Shown here: one piece after another, positions 1 to 9,298 of the stretch
How positions within the stretch are numbered: the stretch's first letter is position 1
How the letters are laid out: each line of letters opens with the position of its first letter
Source of the DNA: Psychroflexus gondwanensis ACAM 44
Lineage (GTDB): Bacteria; Bacteroidota; Bacteroidia; Flavobacteriales; Flavobacteriaceae
NCBI RefSeq assembly: GCF_000355905.1
Contig: NZ_APLF01000004.1
Span: forward strand, 310,001-374,000
Length of the DNA stretch: 64,000 nt
Direction: 5' to 3'
Notes under the pieces: model-generated
Databases searched by the model: none
Seen by the model: the letters and a program-made list of their open reading frames with translations, nothing else
Told to the model about the DNA's origin: nothing
Position numbers and translations under genes: made by a program

Positions 1-2
1 AC

Positions 3-1514
3 GATGCTAATAATGCTTTAGTCGGAAATGGTGTTTCAATGGTCACCTTAGCCTACCTGAGACGGTTTTTAGACTTCTTTAAATCGATTTTTAAAGACAT
101 CGATGCCTCAGAAAACTACGAAGTTTCTGAAGAGCTAGCTGAGATGTTTGCCAAAATGGAAAAAACATTCGCTATCAATAAACATTTAACTGAAGGTAAA
201 TTTAGTGATCACCAACGTAAAGAAGTTTTGGACGAATTAGGTGAAGCAGCGAGTGTTTTTAGGACTCAGGTTTACACTACTGGTTTTTCAGGACATAAGA
301 CTGAAGTCTCTTCAACACAAATCGGGCACTTTATCAACACCAGTTTAGTTTATCTAGAGCATGCAATTGAAGTGAATAAACGAACTGACAACTTATACCA
401 CGCCTATAACCTAATGACCGTTAATCAAGATAAGGTCTCCATAGATTACCTTTCTGAGATGCTCGAAGGTCAAGTTGCTGTATTAAGTTCAGGTTACTTA
501 AATTCTAATCAAGCTTTAACTTTACTTGATGCTTTAAAGCAAAGCGCTTTATTTAGACCCGACCAATACAGTTATTTATTATACCCCTACAAAGACTTAA
601 AAGGCTTTTTGGACCGAAATAATGTTCCAGAAACTTCTGTAAAGTCATCAAAATTGCTTCAAAAGCTGGTGAAAGATGGCCATAAAGGTATAATTGAAAA
701 AGATGTAAAAAACAATTATCACTTTAATGGCAACTTCAATAATGCTAAGAAATTAAAAGAAGCTCTTTTATCTTTAGAAGACCAGGCTTATTCAACTTTG
801 GCAGAAAAAGAAATGGACCAAATACTTAAAGTTTATGAAGAAGTTTTTAATCATAAATCATTTACAGGACGTTCCGGGACTTTTTATGGCTATGAAGGCT
901 TAGGATCTATTTATTGGCATATGGTTTCAAAACTGCAATTAGCGGTTTTGGAAACCTGCATACAAGCCATAGATGCTAAGTCATCTCCTGAAGTTATCGG
1001 TCGATTACTAGAGCACTATTATGAAATAAACGAAGGCATAGGTGTTCATAAATCTCCTAAGTTATATGGTGCATTTCCAACTGATCCTTATTCTCATACT
1101 CCACAAGGTAAAGGCGCACAACAACCTGGGATGACAGGCCAAGTGAAAGAAGACATTTTAAGTCGATTTGGAGAATTGGGTGTTCATATTTATAAAGGGA
1201 AAATTCAATTTAAACCCGATTTATTGCGAAAAACCGAATTTTTAGAAGAAGAACATGTTTTTAGGTTTGTAGATCTAAGCGGTCAAAAGCATCGCCTTCA
1301 ACTTAAGCGGAATTCATTAGGATTTACCTTTTGCCAAGTTCCAATAATTTATTCTATTTCAGATCAAAACAAAATAGAAATAGAATTCTATAGCAAAAAT
1401 TCAGAACAGATTGAAGGACTTCATTTGCCTAAAGAAATTAGTCAAGAAGTTTTTAACCGCTCAGGTCAAGTTAAAATAATTCACGTTTATATTGAAGCGT
1501 CTATTTTAAAATAA
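3..1514 (+). CDS. C-terminal part of a large protein, candidate beta-1,3-glucan phosphorylase-like enzyme (partial)
   Basis: The frame is open to the left edge: 12 further residues precede the first Met at 39, so the true start lies outside the window. About 503 residues are visible. There is no signal peptide or membrane segment in this part. It contains long helical stretches and a conserved-looking block (YGAFPTDPYSHTP, then GAQQPGMTGQVKEDI, around residues 360-390 of the visible part), followed by a short beta-rich tail. I do not recognise the family securely. Its size, the (alpha/alpha)-like composition and the GH17/GH30/MFS neighbours fit the large cytoplasmic beta-1,3-glucan phosphorylases (GH149/GH161), but this is inference. 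The next gene starts 6 nt after its stop, so it is probably co-transcribed with the laminarin genes. Confidence 0.55.
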   Translation, partial: DANNALVGNGVSMVTLAYLRRFLDFFKSIFKDIDASENYEVSEELAEMFAKMEKTFAINKHLTEGKFSDHQRKEVLDELGEAASVFRTQVYTTGFSGHKTEVSSTQIGHFINTSLVYLEHAIEVNKRTDNLYHAYNLMTVNQDKVSIDYLSEMLEGQVAVLSSGYLNSNQALTLLDALKQSALFRPDQYSYLLYPYKDLKGFLDRNNVPETSVKSSKLLQKLVKDGHKGIIEKDVKNNYHFNGNFNNAKKLKEALLSLEDQAYSTLAEKEMDQILKVYEEVFNHKSFTGRSGTFYGYEGLGSIYWHMVSKLQLAVLETCIQAIDAKSSPEVIGRLLEHYYEINEGIGVHKSPKLYGAFPTDPYSHTPQGKGAQQPGMTGQVKEDILSRFGELGVHIYKGKIQFKPDLLRKTEFLEEEHVFRFVDLSGQKHRLQLKRNSLGFTFCQVPIIYSISDQNKIEIEFYSKNSEQIEGLHLPKEISQEVFNRSGQVKIIHVYIEASILK

Positions 1515-1520
1515 AGAGTC

Positions 1521-2804
1521 ATGAAGCCAGTAACACCTGTCCTTTTAGTAATAAGCCTTGTTTTACTGGCTTCTTGCCAATCATCTCAAAAAGAGAAAAA
1601 CCCTATGCAAAATAATAGAAATCTAACTGCTAAAGAAATTCTTAATAAACCAGAGTTTTTAGCAATTTCTTACGGTGGCTACCGAAAAGAGTCACGCGAA
1701 GAGCAACCCACTATTAAACAGCTTAAAGAAGATTTGAAAATTCTTCACGCTATGGATATTCGCATATTACGAACCTATAATGTTCGCCTTCCACATGCTG
1801 CCAACATTTTAAAAGCAATTGACGAACTGAAGAAAGCAAATCCTGAATTTGAAATGTATATGATGCTCGGGGCATGGATCGATTGTAAAAATGCGTGGAC
1901 CGAAATGCCACTCAACCACAATGAAGGAAGCGAACATAACGCTATAGAAATTGACAGAGCTGTAGAATTAGCTAATCAATATCCTGATATTGTTAAAATA
2001 ATTGCGGTTGGCAATGAAGCTATGGTAAAGTGGGCCTCTGCTTATTTTGTTCAGCCACACATTATTTTAAAATGGGTAAAACACCTGCAAGATTTAAAAC
2101 AAGAAGGCGAGATAGATAAGGATTTATGGATTACGAGTTCAGATAATTTTGCCTCTTGGGGCGGCGGAGAACATGAATACCACACTCCAGAGCTCAATGA
2201 GCTCATTAAAGCGGTAGATTATCTTTCTATCCATACCTATCCAATGCATGATACACACTACAATCCTGTGTTTTGGGGTGTACTTCCAAAAGAAAAAAAA
2301 TTGAGTAACACCAAACAGCTAGATAAAGTGATGACTCGTTCCTTGAGTTATGCAGTGTCTCAGTATGATAGTGTTGTAAGCTACATGCAGACTTTAGAAG
2401 TTAAAAAGCCTGTGCATATTGGAGAAACTGGGTGGGCAAGTGTTTCTGCTGGTTATTATGGAGAAAATGGCTCTAAAGCATCAGATGAGTACAAGCAAGC
2501 TTTGTATTATAACAAAATGCGAGAATGGGCTTCAAAAAACAAAATAAAATGTTTCTATTTTGAAGCTTTTGACGAACCCTGGAAAGATGAACATAACCCA
2601 AAAGGTTCCGAGAACTTTTTTGGTCTATTTACAGTAGACGGTAATGCTAAGTACGTTCTTTGGGATGAGTTGGATAAAGGCATTTTCAAAGGTTTTAAGC
2701 GCGGTAAAAACAAAATGACCAAAACCTATAATGGAAACTTGGAAGATCTTCTGCTGGATGTACAAATGCCTCCAGTAAAAAATGAAATTATGCTTAACCA
2801 TTAA
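1521..2804 (+). CDS. GH17-like beta-1,3-glucanase lipoprotein
   Basis: A lipoprotein signal peptide ends in the lipobox LASC (Cys19), which predicts an envelope-anchored enzyme. The rest is a TIM-barrel of the GH17 type: a YGGYR/RTYN start (residues 51-87), the acid/base motif VGNEA (Glu166), and the nucleophile motif GETGW (Glu302) followed by YFEAFDEPW (345-354). GH17 enzymes hydrolyse or transglycosylate beta-1,3-glucan. With GH30 next door it probably works on laminarin or its oligosaccharides in the periplasm or at the outer membrane. The insertion around residues 205-290 is longer than in plant GH17. It sits between the partial upstream gene (6 nt gap) and GH30 (23 nt gap), so probably in one operon. 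The exact bond specificity cannot be read from the sequence. Confidence 0.85.
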   Translation: MKPVTPVLLVISLVLLASCQSSQKEKNPMQNNRNLTAKEILNKPEFLAISYGGYRKESREEQPTIKQLKEDLKILHAMDIRILRTYNVRLPHAANILKAIDELKKANPEFEMYMMLGAWIDCKNAWTEMPLNHNEGSEHNAIEIDRAVELANQYPDIVKIIAVGNEAMVKWASAYFVQPHIILKWVKHLQDLKQEGEIDKDLWITSSDNFASWGGGEHEYHTPELNELIKAVDYLSIHTYPMHDTHYNPVFWGVLPKEKKLSNTKQLDKVMTRSLSYAVSQYDSVVSYMQTLEVKKPVHIGETGWASVSAGYYGENGSKASDEYKQALYYNKMREWASKNKIKCFYFEAFDEPWKDEHNPKGSENFFGLFTVDGNAKYVLWDELDKGIFKGFKRGKNKMTKTYNGNLEDLLLDVQMPPVKNEIMLNH

Positions 2805-2827: not shown

Positions 2828-4327
2828 ATGAAAATTCTGAAAATTTTATCTATAAACTTAATAGCTCTCATGGTGATTAGTTCTTGCGTAGAAACCAAAA
2901 AATCTTTAAAGGTTGAAGTTGTTGAAACCTCCAGAAGTGGAAGTAAACTCTCTAAAGTTGAAGTCTTTAGCGAAGGAAAACCAACTTCTAAAATCAATTT
3001 AAACCCTGATAGAACTTTTCAAACCTTTACGGGTTTTGGTGGATCATTCACAGAGTCTTCTGCTTATTTACTGAATCGATTGAGTAAAGAAAACCGTCAA
3101 AAAATCATCGATGCTTATTTTGCAGAAAGTGGTGCGCGGTATTCGTTAACCAGAACTCATATGAACTCAAGTGATTTCTCTTTAGGTCAATATTCTTACG
3201 CCCCCGTTGAAGGCGACACCTTATTGACTAATTTTTCTATTGAAGAAGATAAAGACGATATTATTCCTATGATTAAAGAGGCTATGAAGGCCTCAAAGGA
3301 AGGATTCAAAATTATATCTTCTCCTTGGACCGCTCCACCTTGGATGAAAGACAATAACGAGTGGGTTGGTGGAAAATTGAAGCCAGAACATTATGACACT
3401 TGGGCCCTTTTCTTTTCTAAATATGTTGATGCTTATGAAGCTGAAGGTATTGATATATGGGGTTTTACTGTGGAAAATGAGCCACATGGTAATGGCAATA
3501 ATTGGGAAAGCATGCACTATACCCCAGAAGAAATGACCGATTTTGTGAGCAATCACCTTGGCCCTCAATTAGAAAAAGACGGTAAAGGCGATAAAATTAT
3601 TTTAGGGTATGACCAAAATCGCGAAGGCATTAAAGAGTGGGTGGATGTGATGTATAAAGATGAGAAAAATACTAAATATTATGATGGAACTGCCATACAC
3701 TGGTATGAAAGCACTTATGAAGTGTTTCCCGAAGCTTTACAATATGCACATGAAAAAGCACCCAAGAAATACTTGATACAAACAGAAGCCTGTGTAGATG
3801 CTGAAGTACCTAAATGGAAAGATGACGACTGGTACTGGAGTAAGGGAGCGACCGATTGGGGATGGGATTGGGCACCTGATGATCAAAAACACTTGCATCC
3901 AAAATACGTTCCTGTCTATCGCTATGCTAGAGATATCATAGGATGTATGAACAATTGGGTCGATGGTTGGGTGGACTGGAATATGATCTTGGACCGACAA
4001 GGTGGACCTAACTGGTTCAAAAACTGGTGTGTGGCGCCAGTCATTGTAGATCCTGACCAAGATGAAGTGTATTTTACCCCTCTCTATTACACCATGGCTC
4101 ATTTCAGTAAATACATAAGACCAGGTGCAAAACGAATTGATTTCGAATCTACAGATAAAGACTTGCAAGTGAGCGCTGCCACGAATCCAGATGGAAGTCA
4201 TATAGTCATCATTTTTAACCCTTCAGAAGAAGAAAAAGTATTTGAACTTAGTATGAAAGAAGCACAACAAGTAGTTTCTATAAGCCCTCAAGCCATCCAA
4301 ACTATTGTATTAAATCCTAAAAAATAA
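2828..4327 (+). CDS. GH30 family glucosidase lipoprotein
   Basis: A lipobox (ISSC, Cys20) predicts lipidation. The barrel shows family GH30 hallmarks: FTGFGGSFTESSA (67-79), SLTRTHMNSSDFS (106-118), SSPWTAPPWMK (164-174), the acid/base in VENEPH (Glu218), and the nucleophile in IQTEAC (Glu320). A C-terminal beta-domain follows (about 425-499). GH30 members of laminarin loci in marine flavobacteria are known to remove beta-1,6-linked glucose branches, so a debranching role is likely, though exo-beta-1,3/1,6 activity cannot be told apart here. It lies directly upstream of the MFS-GH17 gene with a 5-nt gap, which suggests translational coupling. Confidence 0.9.
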   Translation: MKILKILSINLIALMVISSCVETKKSLKVEVVETSRSGSKLSKVEVFSEGKPTSKINLNPDRTFQTFTGFGGSFTESSAYLLNRLSKENRQKIIDAYFAESGARYSLTRTHMNSSDFSLGQYSYAPVEGDTLLTNFSIEEDKDDIIPMIKEAMKASKEGFKIISSPWTAPPWMKDNNEWVGGKLKPEHYDTWALFFSKYVDAYEAEGIDIWGFTVENEPHGNGNNWESMHYTPEEMTDFVSNHLGPQLEKDGKGDKIILGYDQNREGIKEWVDVMYKDEKNTKYYDGTAIHWYESTYEVFPEALQYAHEKAPKKYLIQTEACVDAEVPKWKDDDWYWSKGATDWGWDWAPDDQKHLHPKYVPVYRYARDIIGCMNNWVDGWVDWNMILDRQGGPNWFKNWCVAPVIVDPDQDEVYFTPLYYTMAHFSKYIRPGAKRIDFESTDKDLQVSAATNPDGSHIVIIFNPSEEEKVFELSMKEAQQVVSISPQAIQTIVLNPKK

Positions 4328-4332
4328 GCCCT

Positions 4333-6831
4333 ATGTCCGAAGAAAAAACATTGGCAAAAGATAAAGTTCCCATAGGTCAGAAAGCTGCCTTTGGAGCTGG
4401 TCACTTCATATTAAATGTGTTACCAGGAACATTAGGCGTCTTTATTCAATTTTTTTTACTTACAGCTTGGGGTGTGGATCCATTGTGGGCTGGTTTGCTT
4501 GGTGGTTTACCCAGAATTTTCGATTCCATCACAGACCCAATTATGGGTTTTATTACAGACAACACAAAATCAAGATGGGGAAGGCGCCGGCCTTACATTT
4601 TTTTAGGGGCTATAATAAGTGGTGTCTTGTTTTTCTTGATGTGGCAAATCGGTGATAATGCATCTCAGACTTATATTTTCTGGCATGTTATGGTTCTTCA
4701 ACTTTTGTTTTTAATTGGAAACACCATGTTTGCCACTCCATTAGTAGGCTTAGGTTATGAGCTGACTCCAGATTATAATGAGCGGACTAGAATCATGGCT
4801 TTTTCCAATACTATGGGACAGATTGCTTGGATGATTGTTCCTTGGTTATACGTCATTATACCTGACCCTGAAACTTTTAACACTCAAACAGAAGGTGTGA
4901 GAACTATGGCCTTAATTGTGGGAGCAATGACAATAGTATTTGGGGTTTTACCAGCCCTGTTTTGTAAAGGAATCGACGCTTCAGAAATGGAGAATAGAGA
5001 GAAAATTAATTTCAAAACCTTTGCTTCTAATATGAAGAAATTGGTTTCTGGCATTGTTTTGATCTCAAAAAACAAACCCTTTATGAAGTTGTGTGGGGCC
5101 ACATTCCTTGTTTTTAATGGGTTTCAATTAGTTGCTGCATTTGGGGTGTTTATTATAGTTTTCTACATGTATAACGGGAGTTATGATATGGCAGGTACTT
5201 GGCCAGCTTGGTTCAATACCATTAATGCGATTATCACTGGTTTTTTAGTGATTCCTATTATTTCTAAAATGGCAACCAAAATAGGAAAGCGAAATGCTTT
5301 TTTAATTTCCACCTTTTTATCTATTGTAGGTTATATCCTAAAATGGTGGGGATTTGATGTAGAGCTGAATGAACGTTTCAATCAAACTGCATTAGGAGAA
5401 AGTTTAACGAGTGGACTAGGTTCTATTTTTAATTTTCTTAATCCACATTTAGACAGTATTGGAGCAAGTTGGTTTACAATAGATGTTGAAAACGGTGTTC
5501 CTTGGCTTATATTCTTACCCATCCCTTTTTTTGCTTTTGGGATGGGTGGACTCTTTACACTTATGATGTCTATGACGGCTGATGTATGTGACCTAGATGA
5601 ATTAGAAAACGGATCGCCTAGAAAAGAAGGAACTTTTGGAGCCATCTACTGGTTAATGGTGAAAATTGGGCAATCTATTGCCTTGGTTTTAGGTGGGCTT
5701 ATTCTAAGCATTGTAGGTTTTGACCCTAATATTACAGAACAATCTATTGAAACAATGAATAATCTTAGGATAGCAGATATTGTCGTGCCAGCCGGCACAG
5801 CTGCATTAGCCTTTATTGTGATGTGGGGTTATGATCTAAATGAAAAACGAGTTAGAGAAATAGGTGCAAAACTTAAAATAAGGAACGTTAAGCCTAAAAC
5901 AATCACTTCGTCTGCTTACCTCAATAAATCTCACTTGTCTTTATCTAGTCTAAATATTTTACCTGATACCAAATTTGACATTAATTTTTCTAACAAATCG
6001 ATTAGAGACGTCAAGAATATTTTCACAAAGACGCTTAATAATGGATTGCATGGGATTTGCTTTAGCCCCTATACGAAATCACAAGACCTTAGTGATACAC
6101 TTTCTGAAAAACAAATACGCAGACGAATGAACATTATCCAACCACACACGCAATGGGTAAGGTCTTTTTCTTGCACTAAAGGAAACGAATACATTCCAAA
6201 AATAGCTAAAGATAAAGGACTCAAAACCGTTGTGGGTGCTTGGATAAGCAACGATAAATCAAAAAATGGAAAGGAAATTGAAGAATTAATATCACTTTCC
6301 AATGCTGGTTTAGTAGATATAGCTGTAGTGGGTAATGAAGTTCTACTTCGGGATGAGTTAACTGTAGATGAAGTGCTTGACTATATTTCAATAGTAAAAA
6401 ATGCACTCCCAGACGATATTCCTGTTGCTTATGTGGACTCTTATTATATATTCGATTTACATCCAGAACTTATACAAGCCTGCGATGTTATTCTTATCAA
6501 CTGTTATCCATTTTGGGAGGGGGCCGATATTGATATTTCACCAGCCTATACGCGATATATGTACAATCTGATTAAAGATCAAGCTATGGGTAAACCTGTT
6601 ATTATTTCAGAAACAGGTTGGCCAAGTGATGGAGAAAGTACTGAAGATGCAGTCCCATCAGATTTAAATGCTATGAAATATTTTATCAATGTGAATCATT
6701 GGGCAAATCAAGAAGATATTAAACTCTTTTATTTCTCATCCTTTGATGAATCTTGGAAAATCCATCACGAAGGGGACGTTGGCCAACGTTGGGGAATATG
6801 GAACGAAAAAGAAAAACTTAAATACAATTAG
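4333..6831 (+). CDS. GPH-type MFS sugar transporter fused to a GH17 domain
   Basis: Residues 1 to about 500 form a 12-helix transporter of the glycoside-pentoside-hexuronide:cation symporter type. The loop motif SITDPIMGF...SRWGRRRPY is at residues 65-88, and DVCDLDELENGSPRKEGTFGA lies around 417-437. A linker of about 50 residues leads to a full GH17-like barrel (about 555-832) with acid/base VGNEV (Glu669) and nucleophile SETGW (Glu760). With 12 helices both ends are predicted cytoplasmic, so the hydrolase should face the cytosol next to the transporter exit. The reading frame is continuous with no sign of an artefactual join. The GH17 part is clearly related to the next gene. Likely role: import of short beta-1,3-glucan oligosaccharides coupled to their cleavage. 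Confidence 0.85.
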   Translation: MSEEKTLAKDKVPIGQKAAFGAGHFILNVLPGTLGVFIQFFLLTAWGVDPLWAGLLGGLPRIFDSITDPIMGFITDNTKSRWGRRRPYIFLGAIISGVLFFLMWQIGDNASQTYIFWHVMVLQLLFLIGNTMFATPLVGLGYELTPDYNERTRIMAFSNTMGQIAWMIVPWLYVIIPDPETFNTQTEGVRTMALIVGAMTIVFGVLPALFCKGIDASEMENREKINFKTFASNMKKLVSGIVLISKNKPFMKLCGATFLVFNGFQLVAAFGVFIIVFYMYNGSYDMAGTWPAWFNTINAIITGFLVIPIISKMATKIGKRNAFLISTFLSIVGYILKWWGFDVELNERFNQTALGESLTSGLGSIFNFLNPHLDSIGASWFTIDVENGVPWLIFLPIPFFAFGMGGLFTLMMSMTADVCDLDELENGSPRKEGTFGAIYWLMVKIGQSIALVLGGLILSIVGFDPNITEQSIETMNNLRIADIVVPAGTAALAFIVMWGYDLNEKRVREIGAKLKIRNVKPKTITSSAYLNKSHLSLSSLNILPDTKFDINFSNKSIRDVKNIFTKTLNNGLHGICFSPYTKSQDLSDTLSEKQIRRRMNIIQPHTQWVRSFSCTKGNEYIPKIAKDKGLKTVVGAWISNDKSKNGKEIEELISLSNAGLVDIAVVGNEVLLRDELTVDEVLDYISIVKNALPDDIPVAYVDSYYIFDLHPELIQACDVILINCYPFWEGADIDISPAYTRYMYNLIKDQAMGKPVIISETGWPSDGESTEDAVPSDLNAMKYFINVNHWANQEDIKLFYFSSFDESWKIHHEGDVGQRWGIWNEKEKLKYN

Positions 6832-6834
6832 GAC

Positions 6835-7752
6835 ATGACATATAGAAAAGAACAAGAGCTATCCAAACAACAAGAAAAATTTTTAGCGTCCATACAAACG
6901 CAGAACTTTTTGAAAGAATACACCCCTGAAGAACTTCACGATGTGTTTAAGACCATCATGTCACAAGGTTTTCATGGCATGTGCTTTAGTATGTACGAAG
7001 ATGGCCAGGAACCTGGACATCATATTACAGAAGAACAAGTACTCAGACGAATGAAAATTTTAAAACCTCACGTCAAGTGGGTACGCTCTTTCTCTTGTAT
7101 TGAAGGGAATGAATTTGTACCAAAAGTAGCTAAACAGCTTGGTATAAAAACCTTAGTTGGGGCGTGGCTAGGTGATGACAAAGAAAAAAACAGGGAAGAA
7201 TTAGACAGCTTAATCAAGATGGCCAATGAAGGTTTGGTAGATATTGCTGCCGTGGGTAACGAAGTTTTATATAGAAATGATTTGCCTATTGAAGAACTTA
7301 TGCAACACTTGGATGAAGTGAGAGCAGCCATTCCATCTCATATTCCAGTTGGTTACGTCGATGCGTATTATGAGTTTACAGTTCATCCCGAGTTAACCGC
7401 TAAATGCGATGTCATTTTATCTAACTGTTATCCTTTTTGGGAAAGTTGCCATTACGACTATTCGTTAACTCATATGCAACATATGTATGGCCAAGCCTTA
7501 AGTGCTGCAAAAGGTAAAAAAGTAATAATTACAGAGACCGGCTGGCCTAGCAAAGGGAAAAGTCTTGGCGATGCACACCCCTCGGAAATGAATGCCTTAA
7601 AGTACTTTATAAATACCCAGTTATGGAGTCATAAAGCAGGTATTGAAGTGTTCTATTTTTCGTCTTTCGATGAGTCTTGGAAAGTAGGTGATGAAGGCGA
7701 TGTTGGTGCATATTGGGGAATTTGGGATAAAAACGAACAACTTAAATACTAA
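6835..7752 (+). CDS. Cytoplasmic GH17-like glucan hydrolase
   Basis: A 305-residue stand-alone GH17-like barrel without a signal peptide or membrane segment, so cytoplasmic. Acid/base motif VGNEV (Glu143) and nucleophile motif TETGWPS (Glu234) are both present, followed by FYFSSFDESWK (273-283). It is closely similar along its length to the C-terminal domain of the preceding transporter fusion and starts 3 nt after that gene's stop, which suggests a tandem duplication followed by fusion or fission. Expected substrate: beta-1,3-gluco-oligosaccharides brought in by the MFS partner. Transglycosylase activity is also known in GH17 and cannot be excluded. Confidence 0.85.
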   Translation: MTYRKEQELSKQQEKFLASIQTQNFLKEYTPEELHDVFKTIMSQGFHGMCFSMYEDGQEPGHHITEEQVLRRMKILKPHVKWVRSFSCIEGNEFVPKVAKQLGIKTLVGAWLGDDKEKNREELDSLIKMANEGLVDIAAVGNEVLYRNDLPIEELMQHLDEVRAAIPSHIPVGYVDAYYEFTVHPELTAKCDVILSNCYPFWESCHYDYSLTHMQHMYGQALSAAKGKKVIITETGWPSKGKSLGDAHPSEMNALKYFINTQLWSHKAGIEVFYFSSFDESWKVGDEGDVGAYWGIWDKNEQLKY

Positions 7753-7972: not shown

Positions 7973-9298
7973 ATGAAAAAAATTACAATTATTTTAATGA
8001 TGGTATTAACCGCGACATTTGGGTTTTCTCAACAGGTCGTTGTTCAAGATTTTGAAGCTACTGATTCTTTTACATTTGCAGGCTTTGAGGGTTTGGGTAG
8101 TGTTGCAATAGGAACAGATCCAGCATCAGGTGGAACAAATGGAAGCAACCTTCAGTTAGAAAGTGTATCTACTGGAAATCCATGGCAAGGAGCAGAAATT
8201 GTTCAGCTTATAGATTTTATGCAATTAACAACGGACAAAACTTTATCGATTGATGTATACGCTACTCAGGCCTTTACTTTATTAGGTAAAGTTGAAATAG
8301 GCGGTCCAAATTCTGCAGCATCTCAATCTTACACAACTCCTAATCAGTGGCAAACACTTACCTTTACTTTTAATGAATCATTAGATGGAACTGGTGTTGC
8401 TGATGGAATCTATGAGAAGCTTGTATTTTTCCCAAATTGGAGTTCAAGTAACGGTGGTTTTGATGATCCAGCAGATTTCACAATATACATTGATAATTTA
8501 ACTAGCGAAACGTCAACTCCAGATCCAGATCCAGAGCCAACTGTAGCTGCTCCAACTCCTCCAGAAAGATTGCCAGAAGATGTTATCTCATTATACAGTA
8601 ATCAATATGATAACATCACCGTAACTGAATGGTCAGCTGAATGGGACTCTGCCGATATTGAAGACGTTGTGATTGATGGAAACGATACTAAAAAAATTAC
8701 ATTTGGTGGTTTCTTAGGCGTTGATTTTGCTGCAAACGCATTTGATGCTACAAATATGACGTATTTTCACATGGATTTTTGGGTTGCTAACCCAGATCTA
8801 AGTGATAAAGTATTTAACCCAAAATGGTCCAACCATCTTGGAGCTGATGGAGAAACAAATGCTTACGACTATACCAATATACTTATTGATAGCCCATCAG
8901 GAGAATGGATAAGTCTTGATATTCCACTTGCTGATTTTGTTCCAGTAAACGGAGCAGACAGAAGCGCTTTTGCTCAGTTTTTAATAACATCTAATATTGG
9001 TGGAGTAGCATATGTAGACAACATTTATCTACACAATCAAACCTTAAGTACCAACCAATTTAGCCAAGCTGACTTTACAGTGTATCCAAACCCAACACAA
9101 GATGTATGGAATATCAAAACAACTGTAAATATTTCATCCGTTAAAGTTTACAATTTAATGGGGAATCTTGTATTGAACCAAAAAGTTGATGCTAATGAAG
9201 CCGTAATATCTTCTGAAGGATTAGCGACTGGTGTTTACTTTGTTAAAATTGAGAATGAAGCCAACTACTTTAAAACAGTGAAAGTTATTAAAAACTAA
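7973..9298 (+). CDS. T9SS-exported two-module protein, probable glycan-binding
   Basis: An N-terminal signal peptide (residues 1-20, ending in FGFSQ) is followed by a beta-rich module (about 22-178), an acidic/proline linker with DPDPEP (about 180-205), and a second beta-rich module (about 205-355) with WVANPDLSDK-like strands. A type A T9SS sorting domain (from FTVYPNP at about 368 to the end) predicts secretion and surface attachment. No catalytic motif is visible. The position after the laminarin hydrolases and the carbohydrate-module look suggest a surface laminarin-binding protein. A 220-nt gap separates it from the GH17 gene, so it may have its own promoter, and a strong terminator closes the block. 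Confidence 0.75.
   Translation: MKKITIILMMVLTATFGFSQQVVVQDFEATDSFTFAGFEGLGSVAIGTDPASGGTNGSNLQLESVSTGNPWQGAEIVQLIDFMQLTTDKTLSIDVYATQAFTLLGKVEIGGPNSAASQSYTTPNQWQTLTFTFNESLDGTGVADGIYEKLVFFPNWSSSNGGFDDPADFTIYIDNLTSETSTPDPDPEPTVAAPTPPERLPEDVISLYSNQYDNITVTEWSAEWDSADIEDVVIDGNDTKKITFGGFLGVDFAANAFDATNMTYFHMDFWVANPDLSDKVFNPKWSNHLGADGETNAYDYTNILIDSPSGEWISLDIPLADFVPVNGADRSAFAQFLITSNIGGVAYVDNIYLHNQTLSTNQFSQADFTVYPNPTQDVWNIKTTVNISSVKVYNLMGNLVLNQKVDANEAVISSEGLATGVYFVKIENEANYFKTVKVIKN

Follow-up and report, generated by a model that had tools for sequence, protein, structure and literature searches.

A carrier-GH17 fusion in a laminarin locus of Psychroflexus gondwanensis: a transporter-hydrolase of known kind whose carrier half appears to have been exchanged

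Laminarin ranks among the major carbon stores of algae. Fusion proteins that might couple import directly to cleavage have, to our knowledge, rarely been described, and one such build, an MFS carrier joined to a GH17 enzyme, is itself already known, since 2018, in marine relatives. FbGH17B (AOR29491.1, FORMB_24740) of Formosa sp. Hel1_33_131 carries its GH17 domain at the C-terminal end of an MFS carrier, is encoded in a gene cluster that includes FbGH17A and FbGH30 and, according to the accessible portions of the article, hydrolysed debranched but not branched laminarin and was reported to release glucose, with coupled uptake and cleavage being proposed by its authors (Unfried 2018, PMC6246565). 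The initial annotation of the DNA described here held that no characterised enzyme of this build is known, which requires correction since FbGH17B is an MFS-GH17 protein whose activity on debranched laminarin has been assayed (PMC6246565). No test of the transport function of this build was found in the accessible text of PMC6246565, PMC10108472, PMC11005184 and PMC13188888. In a 2023 study of North Sea MAGs, most of the expressed 'variant 1' laminarin loci contain at least one GH17-MFS fusion (PMC10108472). The accessible text of that study, in which biochemistry of the GH17-MFS fusion was not found, reports expression of variant 1 loci in 11/15 active bacteroidetal and 7/18 active gammaproteobacterial MAGs, including the gammaproteobacterial SAR92, Luminiphilus and SAR86, and counts loci of this laminarin type among those expressed most strongly during a bloom in the North Sea (PMC10108472).

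Two unfused enzymes provide the reference for the hydrolase half. MlGH17B of Muricauda lutaonensis is a free transglycosylase of 295 aa, in which Tyr136, Trp191 and Glu192 are needed for transfer, with the first of these being Met in FbGH17B (PMC11005184, PMC13188888; both as far as accessible). In RmBgt17A of Rhizomucor miehei (4wtp/4wtr), a Tyr102Ala exchange abolished transglycosylation, according to the accessible part of PMC11005184. Neither a carrier of a different lineage nor a pairing of fused and free paralogues is described in the accessible text of PMC6246565, PMC11005184, PMC13188888, PMC11345257 and PMC10108472. Within the Bacteroidota, and as far as these sources extend, the separate fused GH17 lineage with its free neighbour, the split between their active sites and the different history of the carrier thus appear to be new, and may be published elsewhere.

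The window analysed here is the whole 64,000 nucleotide stretch between positions 310,001 and 374,000 of contig NZ_APLF01000004.1 of Psychroflexus gondwanensis ACAM 44, for which the reading frame, the protein folds, the placement in the cytosol, the catalytic pair, the operon and the paralogy were computed. At 4333-6831 (+) it encodes a single ORF of 832 aa, with an ATG start and no internal stops, and the carrier and GH17 parts do lie, carrier first, on one uninterrupted frame as had been noted from the letters alone. The carrier half (residues 1-516; 4333..5880, +) is followed by a linker (approximately residues 517-549; 5881..5979, +) with pLDDT values below 50 at residues 517-533, and by the GH17 half (residues 550-832; 5980..6831, +). 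Matches above the curated cut-offs were obtained for Pfam MFS_2 (residues 20-504, E 2.5e-58) and Glyco_hydro_17 (residues 756-832, E 6.7e-11), the latter covering the last quarter of the profile only. The completeness of the barrel was therefore judged not on the Pfam match but on phmmer, where residues 595-813 match the R. miehei beta-1,3-glucanosyltransferase 4wtp (E 2.3e-30), and on comparison of an AlphaFold model with 4wtr. This model, with an input alignment of 45 relatives, has a mean pLDDT of 84.8, twelve membrane helices with the barrel after the linker, and a pTM of 0.61, at which the relative orientation of the carrier and GH17 domains is not predicted. Foldseek matched the model to MFSD2A and MelB and, separately, the GH17 half to 4wtr with a target TM of 0.88. 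The catalytic pair consists of E669 (motif GNEV), the acid/base, and E760 (motif SETGW), the nucleophile, and the fused protein thus has the barrel and both glutamates of a CAZy GH17 enzyme, bearing out the complete barrel that had been claimed. RmBgt17A has the barrel, the catalytic glutamates and the acceptor-side Trp and Glu in common with the fused domain, and differs from it in being fungal and unfused and in retaining the acceptor Tyr. An assembly accident, a sequencing error or a stop lost in one genome was rejected as the origin of the join, since the fusion is present in 21/27 searched genomes of the genus. It is a real, well-conserved protein belonging to a known kind. Like FbGH17B it combines an N-terminal 12-helix MFS carrier with a C-terminal GH17 domain in one gene, GH17A and GH30 genes are neighbours of both (those of FbGH17B by locus tag), and the Tyr136 equivalent is lost in both, being Met in FbGH17B and Leu in the window's protein.

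The description of the carrier as a 12-helix protein of GPH type stands as regards the MFS_2 match, the helices of the model and the MelB fold. The NCBIfam gph model (TIGR00792), however, returned 181 bits (E 3e-53) against a curated cut-off of 231.35, and the carrier is for this reason termed MelB-like rather than certified as a GPH member. It shares with MelB (4m64, 7l16) and MFSD2A a common fold and the pair of aspartates in helix 2, with D64/D68 aligning to the MelB cation-site residues Asp55/Asp59 in an alignment to 4m64. It differs from MelB in a loop of 56 residues that joins helix 9 to helix 10, in the additional C-terminal enzyme and in the positions of MelB Asp19 and Asp124, which are occupied by N28 and A134 (read by eye in the same alignment). 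We take D19 and D124 to be sugar-site residues of MelB, and their replacement makes it likely that the substrate is a sugar other than melibiose. For the topology, helix cores were taken from the AlphaFold model and charged residues were counted per loop side. On the N-terminal side, the 159 loop residues include 30 Lys/Arg and 20 Asp/Glu, while the 130 on the opposite side include 2 Lys/Arg and 15 Asp/Glu. The GH17 half follows directly after helix 12 and, considering the even number of helices and the 30 inside versus 2 outside positive charges, is predicted to lie in the cytosol, in agreement with the placement initially proposed.

The fused gene forms part of a laminarin utilisation locus together with genes for GH149, GH17A, GH30 and a free GH17, with GH16 also present. 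The window opens with the C-terminal part (1..1514, +) of a 1150 aa GH149 1,3-beta-glucan phosphorylase, the start of which lies upstream of the window; the entire gene (L184:3062-6514) scores 1813 bits with NCBIfam NF058639 against a cut-off of 1150, and no Pfam match was found for the protein. No export signal is evident in this phosphorylase, which suggests that oligosaccharides, and not just glucose, enter the cell. It is followed by a GH17 with a lipoprotein-like start (LASC; 1521..2804, +; Glyco_hydro_17 E 7.1e-07), named GH17A-type from its operon position and start only, and by a GH30 with a lipoprotein-like start (VISSC; 2828..4327, +; Glyco_hydro_30 E 9.3e-73). The GH30 protein, matched by the NCBIfam endo-1,6-beta-glucanase model below its cut-off, is probably the operon's beta-1,6-debranching enzyme. 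Only 3 nt past the fused gene lies a Pfam GH17 gene for a free enzyme of 305 aa (6835..7752, +) with no evident signal peptide and 53 % identity to the fused GH17 domain. The acceptor residues of MlGH17B are kept in this neighbour, and on its retained acceptor Tyr it is predicted to be an MlGH17B-like beta-1,3-glucanosyltransglycosylase. MlGH17B, which is related to the fused domain, is likewise encoded in a locus with GH17A, GH30 and an MFS gene, differing in being unfused. The 'variant 1' loci and the window both combine a GH17-MFS fusion with GH149, GH30_1 and GH17, as far as the accessible text of PMC10108472 allows comparison. Farther upstream are encoded a FecR-type regulator, a TonB-dependent receptor, a GH16 and a PKD/CBM protein, and none of the upstream proteins scanned was recognised as a SusD. 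A 1056 aa protein within the laminarin locus (L182:11588-14758), for which matches were only weak (Glyco_hydro_cc, E 0.027; a beta-galactosidase model, E 0.001), may possibly be an undescribed glycosidase. Upstream of the window on the same contig, a PET-hydrolase-like alpha/beta hydrolase with a type IX secretion tail (L182:2466-3560; PF12740, E 4e-53) was observed, and just past the operon a 441 aa protein (7973-9298, +) with a type IX secretion tail and no further Pfam match.

All sampling was restricted to the Bacteroidota, with the SAR92, Luminiphilus and SAR86 loci falling outside the sample. Among the matches listed, which comprise 80 loci of 208 candidates, the carrier and GH17 are fused in twelve and separate in 67, while one locus (L083) is without such a GH17 and was counted apart from the split loci, as the only GH17 match there was one of 25 %. 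The twelve fused loci are all Psychroflexus-titled with the exception of L014, the protein of which is identical to one in the genus. A search of 27 Psychroflexus genomes revealed the fusion in 21, in one case interrupted by contig ends, and separate genes in two (G305 and G318), while four were without a match, one of them only 52 % complete. The fusion also occurs under other family labels (f8, f24 and f43), giving four labels in all. Frames of 1025-1121 aa were considered as further fusions and rejected, the carrier and GH17 being separate in the six regions fetched (L167-L172), with stops between them in L167.

A free GH17 is encoded no more than 400 bases downstream of 44/47 distinct full-length fused genes. 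Two of the remaining three are too near a contig end, and one (L206) is without a free copy, so that the free enzyme directly follows in 44/45 fused genes with a visible downstream side. One fusion of this arrangement (L147, G123), a protein of 782 aa with Met at the Tyr136 site, has its free GH17 15 bases downstream. In a tree of 87 rows, for which the free enzymes were thinned to 44, all free GH17 rows together with L206 form one clade (support 100/99), and 39/40 fused rows, the window's included, lie outside it, L206 being the exception. The GH17 halves of Psychroflexus likewise form one clade (16 rows, support 100/99). An earlier tree of 71 rows united all 35 fused domains in one clade (SH-aLRT 95.6); with the other families added in the larger tree, the root among the fused domains is unsure and L206 falls among the free enzymes. 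This 820 aa fusion (L206:1881-4343, -; family label f24) has a GH17 half of the free type, its position inside the free clade implying that an enzyme of this type was fused independently, and no free copy occurs in the 1880 bases seen downstream. Nesting of the genus-type fused GH17 within the other fused domains was not established, as holding the 16 others together was not rejected (AU p 0.275). A recent stop loss that joined a 521 aa carrier to the leading gene of a tandem pair of free GH17s, the arrangement of L019 or L023, is disfavoured because the fused GH17 is on a different branch from the free copies of these loci, though lengths and frame would fit.

The two lineages also differ in their active sites. 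Positions of MlGH17B were mapped through the 295 aa free GH17 of L018, with an offset of one as the acid/base Glu is at 134 there. The equivalents of the acid/base, the nucleophile, Trp191, Glu192 and Glu276 are invariant in 48/48 fused and 171/171 free domains. In an earlier, smaller set (37 fused and 155 free domains), the residues mapped to subsites -1 and -2 are likewise invariant, and Tyr168 is varied in 8/37 fused and 0/155 free. Pro50, at subsite -3, is present in 171/171 free domains and only 8/48 fused domains, being absent from 40/48. The acceptor residue Tyr136 is Tyr in 159 and Leu in twelve of the 171 free domains; among the 48 fused domains it is Leu in 35, Met in six, Tyr in six and Phe in one, so that Tyr is gone in 42, although these counts ignore shared ancestry and the loss amounts to few events on the trees. 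At position 275, His occurs in 36/48 fused domains; the six residues found most often there in free domains do not include it. Across positions 50, 136 and 275 the window's fused copy reads Leu/Leu/His and its free neighbour Pro/Tyr/Asp. Of the eight fused domains that retain Pro50, seven have Tyr or Phe at 136, which suggests that the GH17 enzyme was fused first and its active site remodelled afterwards. A strict rule by which fused enzymes lack the acceptor Tyr was rejected, this residue being kept in 6/48 fused domains, and the twelve free domains with Leu show that it is also lost without fusion. Such Leu-bearing free GH17s occur beside unfused carriers in L021, L055, L070, L073, L088, L094, L098 and others, and are predicted to be hydrolases. 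The adjoining fused and free copies provide a residue-level prediction of hydrolase versus transglycosylase.

The most probable reading, to which a probability of roughly 75 % may be assigned, is that the fused protein is an FbGH17B-type transporter-hydrolase of a laminarin locus, with the carrier importing oligosaccharides and the tethered cytosolic GH17 hydrolysing them. The GH30 and GH17A lipoproteins would convert laminarin into short oligosaccharides outside the cytosol, and these short laminari-oligosaccharides would be taken up by the cation-coupled carrier half. The GH17 half, which a flexible linker attaches to helix 12 at its cytosolic end, would hydrolyse them as they emerge; cleavage at the carrier exit would keep free oligosaccharide low, and the remainder would be shared with the GH149 phosphorylase and the free GH17, a putative transglycosylase. 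We infer the sugar and the cation of the carrier, hydrolysis by the window's copy and any gain from tethering, which may raise flux. Hydrolysis is supported by the Tyr136 equivalent, which is Leu in the fusion, Met in FbGH17B and Tyr in the free neighbour. It is nonetheless odd that hydrolysis beside a phosphorylase would waste energy, which is strange for a pure import trap. Tethering is evidently not required, given the 67/80 loci among the matches listed in which carrier and GH17 are separate, and these many split relatives argue that any gain from it is modest or conditional.

The same split loci would suit an explanation in which the join has no role in flux, with the carrier a mere membrane anchor or the join just setting a 1:1 ratio of operon products; small intergenic gaps, which make joining easy, and the flexibility of the linker in the model are also consistent with it. 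This is nevertheless unlikely, as the lineage formed by the fused domains spans four family labels, a free copy adjoins in 44/45 visible cases and their change at Pro50 is seen in 0/171 free domains. Somewhat more doubtful still is that the fused GH17 remains a transglycosylase, which would elongate or kink imported laminari-oligosaccharides and block their exit via the carrier, trapping them by elongation instead of cleavage. In the fusion Leu replaces the acceptor Tyr, RmBgt17A with Tyr102Ala was without transglycosylation (PMC11005184) and the fused FbGH17B was reported to release glucose (PMC6246565), even though the nearest solved relative of the fused domain is a glucanosyltransferase, the Trp191 and Glu192 equivalents persist in 48/48 fused domains, MlGH17B, a free relative, acts as a transglycosylase and an undetected transfer activity of FbGH17B was left open by the 2024 authors (PMC11005184; both articles as far as accessible). 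A GH17 half outside the cytosol, feeding the carrier from the periplasm, is very improbable in view of the even helix number, the 30 versus 2 Lys/Arg and the GH17 domain directly after helix 12; the point in its favour is that two enzymes were called likely periplasmic by Unfried et al., without being named in the accessible text (PMC6246565).

The carrier half of this putative transporter-hydrolase has a different history from that of its enzyme. It shares up to 86 % identity with unfused carriers (the best being from a Winogradskyella), against 36-53 % with those encoded by 27 distinct fused genes from other genera. With carrier groups named after the tree had been inspected, AU tests rejected both a clade of 23 fused carriers (p 1e-45) and a clade of the ten Psychroflexus fused carriers (p 3e-7). 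The window's carrier therefore does not share a lineage of fused carriers, in a comparison that covered carriers other than that of FbGH17B itself. This mismatch was not counted against membership of the FbGH17B type, as shared carrier ancestry is absent from the published description. In a 13-row junction alignment, homology to the unfused carriers extends to about the beginning of the linker, which is also where those proteins terminate, and the linker itself appears, by eye, closer to the linkers of other fusions. These patterns would best be explained by an exchange of the carrier half subsequent to fusion, and we read the protein as a transporter-hydrolase of known kind that has received another carrier. 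The alternative, in which one GH17 lineage was fused repeatedly, is less probable; no unfused member of this lineage was found among the 44 free rows of the thinned set. With carrier exchange as the preferred reading, a course of events may be put forward tentatively, at somewhat less than even odds: a GH17 paralogue joined an importer, its -3 and acceptor subsites were remodelled towards hydrolysis while the free transglycosylase twin was kept, and the importer of Psychroflexus was later replaced, apparently more than once, from an unfused lineage, with linker and enzyme staying. If true, this would be a modular cleave-on-entry unit with an exchangeable carrier. The natural fused and unfused carriers, at up to 86 % identity, offer a pair for testing tethering against flux. 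Carriers of 521 aa, the window's included, seem by the match gaps at 344-388 to contain approximately 45 added residues relative to carriers of 476 aa, within 5353-5520 (residues 341-396), in the loop that joins helices 9 and 10 and is predicted to be periplasmic.
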